A stretch of 64,000 bases of DNA from Ulvibacter antarcticus. GTDB taxonomy: Bacteria; Bacteroidota; Bacteroidia; Flavobacteriales; Flavobacteriaceae. Position numbers and translations under genes: made by a program. The DNA lies in contig NZ_REFC01000012.1 of NCBI RefSeq assembly GCF_003688405.1, positions 372,001 through 436,000 of the forward strand, read 5' to 3'. Each line of letters opens with the position of its first letter. Within the stretch, counting starts at the first letter, position 1. Shown here piece by piece: positions 12,820-17,753 of this stretch. The notes under the pieces are model-generated. The model was given only the letters and a program-made list of their open reading frames with translations, searched no databases and had not been told where the DNA came from.

Positions 12820-12877
12820 AATTTCACCTCAAGAATTAAGATTAAATATGTAACTTGGTGCGAACAACCAGTTGCCA

Positions 12878-14071
12878 ATGTCTAAATCTCCATTTACCAA
12901 AGCACAATTACTTCCACAGGAAGAAACCCTTGAAATTACACGTCAAAAGGGAGAACTTTTTATTGGAATTCCAAAAGAAACGTATTTTCAGGAAAAACGG
13001 ATTTGCCTTACACCAGATGCCGTTGCAGCTGTAGTTGCTAATGGACATAGAGTGCTAATGGAAAAAGGAGCGGGAATTGAAGCAGGATTTAGCGATAAAG
13101 ACTATAGTGACGCTGGTGCTCAATTGTCGAGTGATACTGCAAAGGTATTTGGCTGCCCTATTATTTTAAAAGTAGAACCACCTACTATTGGGGAGCTTAA
13201 ACTTATAAATCCGAAATCTATTTTAATTTCGGCACTTCAACTGAAAACTAGACAAAAAGTTTATTTCGAGACTTTAGCAAAAAAGAAAATTACGGCATTA
13301 GCTTTTGAGTTCTTAAAAGATGAGGATCATAGTTATCCTGCCGTTAAAGCTTTGAGTGAAATTGCCGGAACTGCTTCGGTTTTGATTGCTGCTGAGCTTA
13401 TGGTAAATGCAAAAAAAGGCAACGGACTCTTGTTTGGAAATATTAGTGGTGTTCCTCCGGTTGAAGTAGTGGTTCTTGGCGCAGGAACCGTTGGAGAATT
13501 TGCTGCACGATCTGCCATTGGCCTTGGTGCTAACGTAAAAGTATTCGACAGTTCAATTACGAAATTGCGAAAACTTCAAAATAATCTAGGGAGAACCCTA
13601 TACACCTCTACAGTTCAACCTAAAAACCTTATGAAAGCTCTGCGCCGTTGCGATGTTGCAATTGGAGCTGTAAGAGGAAATAATCGCTCTCCAATTATTG
13701 TTTCAAAAACCATGGTCGAAAACATGAAAAACGGGGCCGTAATTATTGATGTAAGTATCGATATGGGCGGATGTTTCGAAACCAGCGAAGTTACGTCACA
13801 TGATCAGCCTACCATTATTAAAAATGGCGTGATACATTATGGAGTACCAAATATTCCAGCTCGATATCCAAAAACAGCATCAATTTCGATTAGTAACATT
13901 TTTACACCCTATTTATTAAATATGGCAGAATATGGGGGGCTGGAAAATGCGATTCGTTTTGATAGTGGTTTAAAAAATGGTTTGTATTTTTACCGCGGAA
14001 TATTAACAAATAAAGCTGTTGGCGATTGGTACGATCTACCGCATAGTGATTTGAATCTACTCATCTTCTAA
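12878..14071 (+). CDS. ald: Alanine dehydrogenase
   Basis: 397 aa. NAD-dependent oxidative deamination of L-alanine to pyruvate and ammonia (or the reverse). Seen: N-terminal GIPKETYFQEKRICLTPDAV with the substrate-binding Arg and Lys region, the Rossmann segment VVVLGAGTVGEFAAR, and the IDVSIDMGG motif with the conserved C-terminal active-site region. Family AlaDH/PNT. I chose the ATG at 12878; a TTG two codons earlier is possible but less likely. About 30 residues precede the usual start of the family, as in other flavobacterial copies. Confidence 0.94.
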   Translation: MSKSPFTKAQLLPQEETLEITRQKGELFIGIPKETYFQEKRICLTPDAVAAVVANGHRVLMEKGAGIEAGFSDKDYSDAGAQLSSDTAKVFGCPIILKVEPPTIGELKLINPKSILISALQLKTRQKVYFETLAKKKITALAFEFLKDEDHSYPAVKALSEIAGTASVLIAAELMVNAKKGNGLLFGNISGVPPVEVVVLGAGTVGEFAARSAIGLGANVKVFDSSITKLRKLQNNLGRTLYTSTVQPKNLMKALRRCDVAIGAVRGNNRSPIIVSKTMVENMKNGAVIIDVSIDMGGCFETSEVTSHDQPTIIKNGVIHYGVPNIPARYPKTASISISNIFTPYLLNMAEYGGLENAIRFDSGLKNGLYFYRGILTNKAVGDWYDLPHSDLNLLIF

Positions 14072-14487: not shown

Positions 14488-16233
14488 TTATGTCTTTAGA
14501 CGGTTGGACAGTTTTTTAATACAGTACGATGGATATATTCCGTGTCTTTTATAAAATGCTTTTGAAAATGATTCAGCCCCTTTAAACCCACAATCAGCAG
14601 CAATTGCTTTTATGGAGTACTTTCTGAATACTGGGTTCTCGGTCAGTTCTTGCAAAGCATACTCCACTCTCAGGTCGTTAATATATTGTGGGAAATTTTT
14701 TTCTTTCTGCATATTGATCACTTTTGAAAGATATCTCGAGTTAGTTTTAAATATAGTTGCCATACTGTTCAAGGATGTCTTTTGGGATAAATATCCCTTT
14801 TTCATTTCATAATCAGTTAAACAAGATAAAATTGAATCGAAGATCTCTGAAGACATTTCAGGTGTTTTCACTATTCTTTTTTCATCTTTTAATGCTTCCC
14901 CTTTCGATGTTACTATTAGTCTCTCAAATTTCCTTTTATAAACGAGTTGCCGGTTAAAATAATAGCCAGTTGCTATTAAAAAGAGGATTACAGCACTACC
15001 CACCCACCATAATTTACTTTTTGATTTTTTGTTTTTAAGTTTTAATTCCGAGATAAGATTTTCTTTTTCTCTAATGAGATTAGGTGTTTCAAATTTTTTT
15101 ATAAGATCAGGTTCGAAAAATTGATAGTTCTTTTTGAAAATACTATCAACAAATAGTAGCTTATTCCTGTAATGAATTTGCTTTTCAGTATGCCCAATCT
15201 TATCATAAAACTCCACTAAGGATTCAAATAATAATCTTTGATTCGGAAGAAATAACAATTTGTCCATTGAATCGAAAATTGAATCTGCTTTATTTAAATT
15301 TTCAATTCCTTCAACCTTTTTACCTAATTTTAATAAAGATAGTCCTTTGAATAAATATACATTCAAATAAGATTGATTTGAAATATTCCCTTTTTGAGCT
15401 TTAATGAGTTCATCCGCTTCATCGATAGATTTTTTATATTTCTTTAGATTATAATCATTTTCAATTGATAATTCTAAAAATAAATAATAATAAAAATCAC
15501 TTTCATTAGTATAACCTACATAACTCTCTGCCGTATTAATCCCACGATTGATATAAAATTCCGCTGAATCCATTTTTTTTAGATTAATATAACAAAACGC
15601 AAAATTAAGTATTGATGACAACTCATTCTCCAAATGTATCTCCTTCAAATAACCATAAGCGCCTTCACGAGTTGAGCTCTTCACGTCTCTTAAATACTCC
15701 TTATCATTCATTAACTTATGCCGTAATCTTTGAAGATTCAAAGCTTCTAATTTATTTCCCCAAATTGCTTTATGTTTTATTAATAAATCTAATAAATAAA
15801 TCTGTTGGGACATATTATCCCGTTCAATTGCTATGTCATAAGCGGTTATAGCATTTTCAGTAGCGAATATCAATTTACCTAAACCTTGATACTCATAACT
15901 TTTTAGAATATATCCTAATCCTGGATACGTAATATTATCAAGATCTTTAGTAAGTTCAATTATACTATCTGCGAATTGAATATTTTTTTCTGGATGGAAA
16001 ATTCTGGCAAGTCGATCATAGCCTCTAGCCATTTTTATCGTGTCATGTTTTTGTCTCGCCCTATTTAAGTAGGTCCTTGCAACCACCTCGGCCTTTAATG
16101 AATCGATTACAACTTCATTAAAGAGGGTTAACAATTCTTCATCATCAAGGGTTTTTAAATGGGAAGGAGATAAATCCTGGGCATTTATAAACTGACACAC
16201 TAGAATGCATAAAACGGATAAACAAAATTTCAT
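14488..16233 (-). CDS. Membrane-anchored TPR / AraC-type transcriptional regulator
   Basis: 581 aa. A signal sequence (MKFCLSVLCILVCQFINAQ) is followed by an extracytoplasmic helical region with tetratricopeptide-like repeats (about 25-370), one membrane span (LWWVGSAVILFLIATGYYF, near 405-425) and a cytoplasmic C-terminal AraC-type helix-turn-helix domain (about 480-581, with YINDLRVEYALQEL and the diagnostic IAADCGFKGAESFSKAFYKRHG). This is a one-protein signal transducer: periplasmic sensor plus DNA-binding output. The gene is convergent with the preceding small anchored protein and has a gene-free 347 bases upstream that may hold its operator. The ligand and targets are unknown. Confidence 0.88.
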   Translation of the reverse strand: MKFCLSVLCILVCQFINAQDLSPSHLKTLDDEELLTLFNEVVIDSLKAEVVARTYLNRARQKHDTIKMARGYDRLARIFHPEKNIQFADSIIELTKDLDNITYPGLGYILKSYEYQGLGKLIFATENAITAYDIAIERDNMSQQIYLLDLLIKHKAIWGNKLEALNLQRLRHKLMNDKEYLRDVKSSTREGAYGYLKEIHLENELSSILNFAFCYINLKKMDSAEFYINRGINTAESYVGYTNESDFYYYLFLELSIENDYNLKKYKKSIDEADELIKAQKGNISNQSYLNVYLFKGLSLLKLGKKVEGIENLNKADSIFDSMDKLLFLPNQRLLFESLVEFYDKIGHTEKQIHYRNKLLFVDSIFKKNYQFFEPDLIKKFETPNLIREKENLISELKLKNKKSKSKLWWVGSAVILFLIATGYYFNRQLVYKRKFERLIVTSKGEALKDEKRIVKTPEMSSEIFDSILSCLTDYEMKKGYLSQKTSLNSMATIFKTNSRYLSKVINMQKEKNFPQYINDLRVEYALQELTENPVFRKYSIKAIAADCGFKGAESFSKAFYKRHGIYPSYCIKKLSNRLKT

Positions 16234-16368
16234 AAAAAAGATTATGACCTAAAACTAACAAAAAAAAACTTCGCATTAAACTAATATGGAGTTGTAGATA
16301 AAAACTTACCTATTCTAGACTTTAATTCCCTTGTTAACAGAATTTAGAGTCATTTTTAAGAAGTCGAA

Positions 16369-16400
16369 ATTCTTGAATGGCGACCGCTTTATTCAAGAAT
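16369..16400. repeat. Perfect 10-bp inverted repeat
   Basis: ATTCTTGAAT (16369-16378) and ATTCAAGAAT (16391-16400) with a 12-base spacer. It lies about 140 bases before the AraC/TPR regulator start on the minus strand. It may be an operator of that regulator or an RNA hairpin; no T run follows. Confidence 0.5.
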
Positions 16401-16464
16401 AACGAGGTGTTAGCCTTGCAAGCCTCCTATAATCATAGCATCTTTGAGCTATAGATTTGTAAAA

Positions 16465-16547
16465 GAAAAGCAACGACAGAGACTTTCTTAACTATTATTA
16501 ACTGGGGAGTTGATGTACACGAAAGTCTTTTAGTTGCTTATTTTTTT
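16465..16547 (+). ncRNA. Candidate structured small RNA
   Basis: TAGATTTG (16452-16459) is an exact -7 element; transcription would begin near 16465. The following 83 bases fold as nested stems: AAGCAAC (16468-16474) with GTTGCTT (16533-16539), then GACTTTC (16481-16487) with GAAAGTC (16521-16527), enclosing a hairpin AACT-GGGG-AGTT (16500-16511). Seven T bases (16541-16547) end it. Ends paired with each other, an asymmetric internal bubble and a U tail fit a small RNA. No proper -33 TTG is present. The alternative is an imperfect terminator for proline dehydrogenase read on the other strand. Not assigned to a known RNA family. Confidence 0.45.
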
Positions 16548-16580
16548 GAATCGATTTAGCTTCTAATGAGTAGAAAATTA

Positions 16581-17753
16581 CTAAATCCCTCTTCGAGCTT
16601 TTTCTTTCTTTAATAGTGTAAGCTCTCTACTTGTCTGTCCTGCCACAGATGTATTTTCTTCAGCACGTCTTATAAGATATGGCATCACATCTTTTACAGG
16701 TCCAAATGGGATATACTTGGCAACATTATAGCCTTCAGTTGCTAAATTGTAGCTAATATGATCACTCATGCCGTATAGCTGGCCAAACCAAACTCTGGCA
16801 TCATTTTTAGCAATTCCCTTGTCACTCAAAGCATCCAGAGCTAGATAACTGCTCGCCTCATTATGAGTACCTAAAAATAATGAGATGTCATCCAGATTAT
16901 CCAGTATATACGTCATCACTGCGTTAAAATTATCATCGGTAGCTTGTTTGCTTTCACAGATTGGGGAACTATAACCCTTGTCCTCTGCCCTATCGTTTTC
17001 CTTTTCCATATAAGCCCCTCTCACTACTTTGAACCCAAGTTTGTACCCTTTAGATTTAGCTTTTTGATGTTGATCCTTCAAATAATCAAGACGATCCCAA
17101 CGATAACACTGTAGCGTATTAAATACAATAGGAGTATCCTTATTATACTTTTCCATCATTAGCTCACAAAGATTATCGGCGGCATTTTGCATCCATGATT
17201 CTTCTCCATCAATTAATAAGGATATATTACAACCATGTGCAACATTACATACTTTGTCGTATCTCTTAACTATTCGCTCCCATTCCTCATTTTCAGATTG
17301 CGAAAGTGACTCATTCTCGGTTATCTTTTGCCAAATCTTGAAGCGACCAAATCCTGTTGGTTTAAACACTGAAAATGGCATTGCCGATTTATTTTCAGCA
17401 AAACGGGTAAGTTCAATTACCTTTTCAAGAGTAGCATCAAATTGTTTTTCATCTTCTTTCCCTTCCACAGAATAATCCAAAACAGAATGCACATCAGCTC
17501 CTAATAGATTATCCACTACGGGAAGGCAATCTTCTTCACTAATTCCGCCGCAAAAATGATCAAATACAGTTGAACGTATCAATCCTTCTACCGGCAAATG
17601 CAGATTTAATGCAAATCTGGTGGCTGCTGTACCTATTTTTACCAGAGGCTCATGCGAAATCATTTTAAATAAAAAATATGCACGATCTAGTTCAGAATCA
17701 CTTTTAAGCTTAAAAGCGACTTCTGTATTGTCAAAAAGAGTTTTTGATTTCAT
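16581..17753 (-). CDS. Proline dehydrogenase
   Basis: 390 aa, single-domain FAD enzyme (PRODH) oxidising L-proline to pyrroline-5-carboxylate and feeding electrons to quinone. A beta/alpha barrel with IVFNTLQCYRWDRL, GFKVVRGAYMEKE, LGTHNEASS, RVWFGQLYGM and the C-terminal YIPFGPVKDVMPYLIRRAEEN, whose paired Arg contact the proline carboxylate. The P5C dehydrogenase half of PutA is not fused and not in the window. It is divergent from aroB across 71 bases that hold promoter elements for both directions. Confidence 0.95.
   Translation of the reverse strand: MKSKTLFDNTEVAFKLKSDSELDRAYFLFKMISHEPLVKIGTAATRFALNLHLPVEGLIRSTVFDHFCGGISEEDCLPVVDNLLGADVHSVLDYSVEGKEDEKQFDATLEKVIELTRFAENKSAMPFSVFKPTGFGRFKIWQKITENESLSQSENEEWERIVKRYDKVCNVAHGCNISLLIDGEESWMQNAADNLCELMMEKYNKDTPIVFNTLQCYRWDRLDYLKDQHQKAKSKGYKLGFKVVRGAYMEKENDRAEDKGYSSPICESKQATDDNFNAVMTYILDNLDDISLFLGTHNEASSYLALDALSDKGIAKNDARVWFGQLYGMSDHISYNLATEGYNVAKYIPFGPVKDVMPYLIRRAEENTSVAGQTSRELTLLKKEKARRGI

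Follow-up and report, generated by a model that had tools for sequence, protein, structure and literature searches.

Analysis of a 64,000-nucleotide stretch of Ulvibacter antarcticus DNA (the window) predicted a small RNA (sRNA) of about 84 nt on the plus strand at 16464..16547, composed of a rod, an apical hairpin and a U-run. This RNA is very likely real, and in the reading that we favor, at a probability of about 0.55, it is a base-pairing sRNA of a new sibling-sRNA family that is driven by a membrane one-component regulator. The regulator, anchored in the membrane by one transmembrane helix between a periplasmic TPR-like sensor and a cytoplasmic HTH_18 domain, would bind an intergenic operator made of direct repeats and control the divergently encoded sRNA. 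The sRNA itself would be a rod that terminates its own transcription and can drift in sequence while the seed at its tip, GGGGAGUU, stays fixed, and the seed would pair with AACUCCCC near the start codons of several mRNAs, probably repressing their translation. Five or more further intergenic sRNA candidates in this genome (G000) carry the seed hairpin, and four of these form a tandem array; several inputs would then act on a single target set.

The features that the original prediction had listed, namely an exact -7 element, nested stems, a GGGG hairpin and a U-run, were all present at 16452-16547 in the sequence and in the computed fold. The -7 promoter box TAGATTTG (16452..16459, plus strand) is an exact match to the published consensus TAnnTTTG, which is placed at -12 to -5 by a report on the Flavobacterium psychrophilum transcriptome (PMC9723704), and the RNA is therefore predicted to start near 16464 and to be about 84 nt long. 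While this 5' end was deduced from the -7 box, the 3' end was deduced from the terminal U-run (16541..16547, plus strand), a predicted intrinsic terminator that has T-rich counterparts at the ends of the homologues; the extent of the RNA is also consistent with the fold and with homologues in the same place. An outer extension helix (16461-16466 with 16541-16546, plus strand) closes the fold. The rod comprises two plus-strand helices defined by the fold and by a cross-arm duplex test, P1 (5' arm 16468..16474, 3' arm 16533..16539) and P2 (5' arm 16478..16487, 3' arm 16521..16530). Above them, the apical hairpin (16496..16515, plus strand; stem 16496-16503/16508-16515, GGGG loop 16504-16507) was defined by pair counts in 31 hairpins, and the core GGGGAGUU (16504..16511, plus strand), the proposed seed, by its invariance across the aligned hairpins.

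The plus strand folded at -27.8 kcal/mol, compared with -14.2 kcal/mol for dinucleotide shuffles (z -5.1, with 0 of 200 shuffles as good), and the minus strand at -16.5 kcal/mol (z -3.2, dinucleotide shuffles). A simple terminator scan did not flag the element, because the rod is imperfect. A peptide-coding reading was rejected; the sole ATG frame in the element has six codons and, by reading, is without a counterpart in the congeneric genome G002.

Searches for known RNA families gave no name for the element. There were no matches to Rfam 15 at gathering score in the window, a lax Rfam scan of 16200-16620 returned two matches only, both far under their gathering scores, and no Rfam match was obtained among 12 sibling loci. 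The resemblance to 6S-like RNAs that had been suggested for the element was not borne out. 6S-Flavo RNA (RF01685) is, like the element, a flavobacterial RNA with a closing stem and an internal bubble, but membership was set at a covariance-model score of at least 85 bits, which the element did not reach, and the member in this genome lies at a separate locus (G000:C2:18784-18891, 102.3 bits); the 6S-like reading was therefore dropped. In the PMC literature, which leaves out subscription papers and preprints, a search found no description of the element RNA and no flavobacterial sRNA with GGGGAGUU.

Counting G000, 17 genomes carry the element or a homologue at the corresponding position. In G003, which belongs to the same genus, the element lies between proline dehydrogenase (ProDH) and the TPR-HTH regulator; in G002, also of the same genus, it lies beside ProDH at a contig end, which puts the regulator gene out of sight, and in a further congeneric genome, G001, neither element nor regulator was found. 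When 299 family genomes were searched with a covariance model (R1) built from three congeneric sequences, 18 had matches at E<=0.5, including members in other genera. Ten R1 matches (L041, L042, L044-L051), which fell in coding or unrelated sequence, were judged by inspection to be chance-like and were discarded.

When the N-terminal 470 residues of the regulator were used to query the same 299 family genomes, 34 genomes matched at E<=1e-20, and 18 loci were at orthologue level (E<=1e-58). The element was present on the strand divergent from this conserved regulator at 15 of the 18 orthologue loci, 14 of which were identified by a motif scan and one (G143) by eye; the 17 elements are these 15 together with those of G002 and G115, both from other searches. 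No element was seen at the orthologue loci of G130, G139 and G192, at a contig-edge orthologue beyond the E cut (G235), or at any of 12 more distant paralogue loci (L070-L081). Judged by eye from similarity to genes of the window, the neighbor of the 17 elements was ProDH in nine cases, an alanine-dehydrogenase-like gene in four and something else in four. In G103 and G223 the regulator is beside the element and ProDH is not, and the regulator also adjoins the element in G065, G115 and G126. The loci without an adjacent ProDH (L038, L043) therefore indicate that the element is linked to the regulator, and we hold with considerable confidence that it belongs with this divergent gene. No ProDH was found on IMG/VR contigs.

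The alanine-dehydrogenase-like gene of the window (12872-14071, plus strand) is located on the other flank of the regulator, and a homologue is found directly downstream of the sRNA in four other genomes.

The rod arms have little sequence in common between genera. Comparison of pair numbers in the rods with those of shuffled flanks was a weak test, because AU-rich flanks pair easily (5 to 128 of 200 shuffles were equally good), and a duplex test was adopted for that reason, in which every left arm was combined with every right arm, with two near-duplicates and an orphan hairpin of G139 omitted. Among the 15 rods, cognate arms had a mean duplex energy of -23.8 kcal/mol, compared with -10.6 kcal/mol for non-cognate arms (sd 4.3). 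The cognate arm ranked first both ways in 12 of the 15 rods and second one way in the other three, counts that are not independent because the rods share ancestry. The arms thus pair despite their drift, which provides the covariation in related genomes that the original prediction had named as a check on its stems. In windows of 110 nt, the folds of G186 and G230 scored no better than z -1.5. Given the homologues and the covariation, a chance origin of the element was dismissed.

Several features distinguished the two strands. In the apical hairpin, 89.3% of the cells were paired on the plus strand and 79.1% on the minus strand (31 sequences); the hairpin pair 11-18 was CG in 17 and UG in 11 with none broken on the plus strand, compared with 11 broken on the minus strand. 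A run of eight with at least six T followed the rod on the plus side of 14 of the 17 elements and on the minus side of five. A -7-type box preceded the element on the plus side in 8/17 and on the minus side in 2/17, with 4/42 in background windows, and nine of the 17 elements had no box of the scanned types. The pattern TTG-N19-TAnnnTTTG occurred at four elements on the plus side and at none on the minus side; a looser -33/-7 pattern had 14 occurrences on both strands of the 64-kb window, and the promoter predicted for the G000 element lacks a -33 TTG at the expected spacing. The plus-strand small structured RNA proposed earlier is thus supported by homology, covariation, strand-specific G-U pairs and the placement of terminator and promoter, which together predict transcription away from the regulator gene.

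The divergent regulator (14488..16233, minus strand) has a signal peptide, a TPR-like solenoid, a transmembrane helix and a C-terminal HTH_18 domain, as indicated by Pfam, hydropathy, AlphaFold and Foldseek. Pfam placed HTH_18 at residues 491-569 (E 5.7e-14), and hydropathy analysis placed a hydrophobic segment at about residues 400-410 in the majority of the regulator orthologues. The N-terminal part is an all-helical solenoid in the AlphaFold model (pLDDT 85), the best Foldseek matches of the model were TPR proteins, LGN/Pins and the peptide sensor NprR among them, and Pfam TPR matches were below cut-offs only.

Two copies of ATTCnnGAAT, 21-22 bp apart, are located between the regulator and the RNA in G000 and form a candidate operator, with no strand assigned, whose first half-site is ATTCTTGAAT (16369..16378) and whose second is ATTCAAGAAT (16391..16400). 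Its recognition is based on TTCnnGAA copies in the homologous loci: 12 of the 17 have two copies 21-22 bp apart in this region, four have one exact copy and G143 has none, and TTCnnGAA was found at none of the four loci that are without the RNA (G130, G139, G192 and G235). AraC-type operators consist of two direct-repeat half-sites about 21 bp apart. Because the box itself is palindromic, the direct-repeat sense of the candidate operator rests on its flanks, which are partly repeated too, as with GAATnnCGA in G000 and G126. The sRNA is probably controlled by the divergent regulator; the candidate operator could also serve only the regulator's own promoter. Tandem TTCnnGAA pairs were near background in most of 14 genomes (five in G000 versus three in the reversed control), and thus no wide operator regulon is claimed, except for G230, where 18 pairs versus two in the reversed control make an expanded regulon of the TPR-HTH regulator possible.

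Some of the G230 pairs (L098-L109) lie near the starts of genes for secreted or serine-hydrolase-like proteins. The regulator of G115 (L037, 491-1267) is reduced to 258 aa, with the sensor largely lost and the transmembrane helix and HTH kept; the operator pair and the sRNA are retained there despite the shortened regulator.

The sequence GGGGAGU was invariant in 31/31 aligned hairpins, and GGGGAGUU was whole in 30/31, with the final U varying once. These 31 hairpins, 28 of them distinct, came from rods, array members and other loci, with G098 (one-base deletion) and some identical array rows omitted. The 5' strand of the stem varies (AACU, AAUU, AGCU, GACU) with its pairs preserved, and since the loop and the 3' side of the stem are fixed while the 5' strand drifts, something seems to read the 3' side. 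AGUU, half of the seed, is paired in the free RNA.

The same tip recurs elsewhere. AAYTGGGGAGTT occurred 56 times in 14 genomes versus 10 times for the reversed pattern, and a hand count at sequence level gave 59 versus 17 reversed-control matches among the 41 family genomes listed, G000 included. Six of the 29 TGGGGAGTT sites in G000 have a perfect stem of at least six pairs and all six are outside long open frames; the remaining sites have shorter stems and are nearly all inside long open frames. G003, where 29 of 33 sites were examined, has eight stems of this kind, of which seven are outside long open frames. The GGGGAGUU hairpin is found at five further intergenic loci in G000, four of which are arrayed beside kdsA (L148, G000:C6:81140-82758), with a kdsA-like gene and a small conserved gene on one side and a membrane-protein gene on the other. 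This array is syntenic in six genomes, with two to four copies in G002, G003, G065, G115 and G126, and its members have the hairpin at the 5' terminus, a separate terminator hairpin and, in many cases, a -33/-7-like promoter at a fixed distance. Several candidate loci with the seed structure are thus present per genome at the sequence level, and the element is likely to be a member of a new sibling-sRNA family with a GGGGAGUU tip. The drifting outer stem and the fixed tip, recurring in unnamed sRNAs, suggest an unrecorded mRNA-silencing family.

Candidate mRNA targets were sought as AACTCCCCW, the complement of the core, which has 102 sites in G000 and G003, 101 of which were examined and 13 of which proved to be sRNA-like hairpin loci. 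A site was assigned to a start codon if it fell in the interval -50..+12 around an ATG that begins a frame of 100 codons or more. Among the 88 non-sRNA sites (AACUCCCC/AACTCCCCW), 13 were near start codons in sense and none in antisense, a strand bias of 13:0 (p 0.0002). The scrambled octamer CAATCCCCW gave two sense and one antisense of 68 sites (68 of 73), and other NNNNCCCCW sites in control DNA gave five of each among 125; the enrichment of 13/88 over the pooled controls (7/193) had a Fisher p of 0.0018. Start-codon sites did not have more extended complementarity than other sites (p 0.10, 0.18), and the target lists of G000 and G003 had no gene in common. The candidates, named from reading their sequences and not from a library search, were in G000 two response regulators, a RadC-like protein, two four-helix-bundle proteins, an HNH-like protein and one of no known kind, and in G003 a DapF-like protein, a nuclease-like protein and others. 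Our best guess, at about even odds, is that the GGGGAGUU tip serves as an antisense seed against the start regions of mRNAs.

The main rival to an antisense seed is a protein ligand of the tip. The GGGG hairpin would then be a protein-binding site and the sRNAs would titrate an RNA-binding protein in the manner of CsrB/RsmY and CsrA, the AACUCCCC sites in mRNAs being incidental. A short invariant loop on a drifting stem, present in several copies per genome with an array among them, is consistent with such titration, as is the failure to see selection for extended target complementarity. We nevertheless regard titration as rather unlikely, since the invariant block continues past the loop into the 3' stem strand, and the opposite 5' strand changes but keeps pairing through G-U, as a seed would require, and since the core complement is enriched at starts with its one-sided strand bias. 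In addition, CsrB/RsmY decoys, which bind the CsrA protein, carry several GGA-loop hairpins per RNA, whereas there is one GGGG hairpin per RNA here, which sets the element apart from decoys of that type.

Two other explanations would confine the element to its own locus. It might be a cis element, the 5' leader of the regulator or an operator hairpin, functioning either at the DNA level or within the regulator mRNA, and its position upstream of the regulator in the 17 loci (in G002 the contig ends first), where the regulator is its only constant neighbor, would agree with this; the G-U pairs and the U-run indicate the opposite strand, however, a similar hairpin is found at an unrelated place in G139, and siblings occur elsewhere in the genome, all of which makes a cis element improbable. 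The loose ProDH terminator that the original prediction had offered as its opposing explanation, or a bidirectional terminator, is more improbable still. The element lies 34 bp beyond the ProDH stop and the G000 minus strand is T-rich after the rod, but ProDH is not a constant neighbor, being away from the element in 8/17 loci, and four orthologous regulator-ProDH junctions are without any such hairpin; moreover, the minus strand folds worse and breaks conserved pairs, and a plain terminator would not preserve the GGGGAGUU tip.

If a base-pairing sRNA under the divergent regulator is accepted, its closest parallels in design are OxyR-OxyS, GcvA-GcvB and SgrR-SgrS, in each of which a transcription factor gene is divergent from the adjacent sRNA with the operator between them. 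The element likewise has a divergent adjacent factor gene and a candidate operator between, but the present factor, from Bacteroidota, is a TPR-HTH_18 protein anchored in the membrane, and the RNA is a single self-terminating rod; to our knowledge no homology links the systems, and none is expected. Cuckoo RNAs (alpha-r14) are sibling sRNAs, some of them in tandem, that have a conserved loop motif pairing near start codons. Their loop is a C-rich anti-Shine-Dalgarno sequence, whereas that of the element is G-rich; the lineage of the element is not known to rely on Shine-Dalgarno pairing. NfeR1 belongs to the Cuckoo RNA/alpha-r14 sRNAs (PMC10746234).

Within Bacteroidota, PMC11697453 describes the FopS family of Bacteroides as multicopy sibling sRNAs with a common seed acting near start codons. 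The element family resembles it in having multicopy siblings with one seed, a role that is proposed here, and differs in that FopS sRNAs have their seed in a single-stranded 5' segment ahead of the terminator hairpin, whereas the block of the element is in the apical loop and stem. Rfp18 of Flavobacterium psychrophilum is, like the element, a conserved structured flavobacterial sRNA; it affects mRNA levels and has predicted stem-loop pairing (PMC9723704). Compared by description only, Rfp18 differs in being found in Flavobacterium and linked to proteases, and no regulator partner is described for it in the available part of that report.

Little has been charted of the RNA regulators of Bacteroidota, and the input is known for only a few of them. 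The proposed family would account for an 8-mer that recurs on intergenic hairpins across related genomes. More tentatively, and with the odds somewhat against it, a clade of marine Flavobacteriaceae may have an unrecorded post-transcriptional network based on the 8-nt GGGGAGUU, carried on the hairpin tips of several otherwise unrelated sRNAs. One branch of this network would be coupled directly, via an HTH_18 protein in the membrane, to a periplasmic TPR sensor. A signal from the envelope or from outside the cell would then lead to silencing at the RNA level, with no phosphorelay involved. Because the sensor, the operator, the sRNA and the candidate seed lie within less than 2.1 kb, the whole circuit would be testable in one strain.

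A hairpin with a similar rod and a GGGGAGUU tip was found in G139 (L039/L115, G139:C33:9983-10050), with no operator and no regulator adjacent. Its fold was weak (z -2.1), and it was counted apart from the 17 elements; the regulator locus of G139 itself is without the RNA. In G002, near-identical hairpins TTAACTGGGGAGTTTTTCTTCAAGA are present at two places (L164 and L167), one of which is beside a transposase-like gene, which suggests a mobile copy of the motif.
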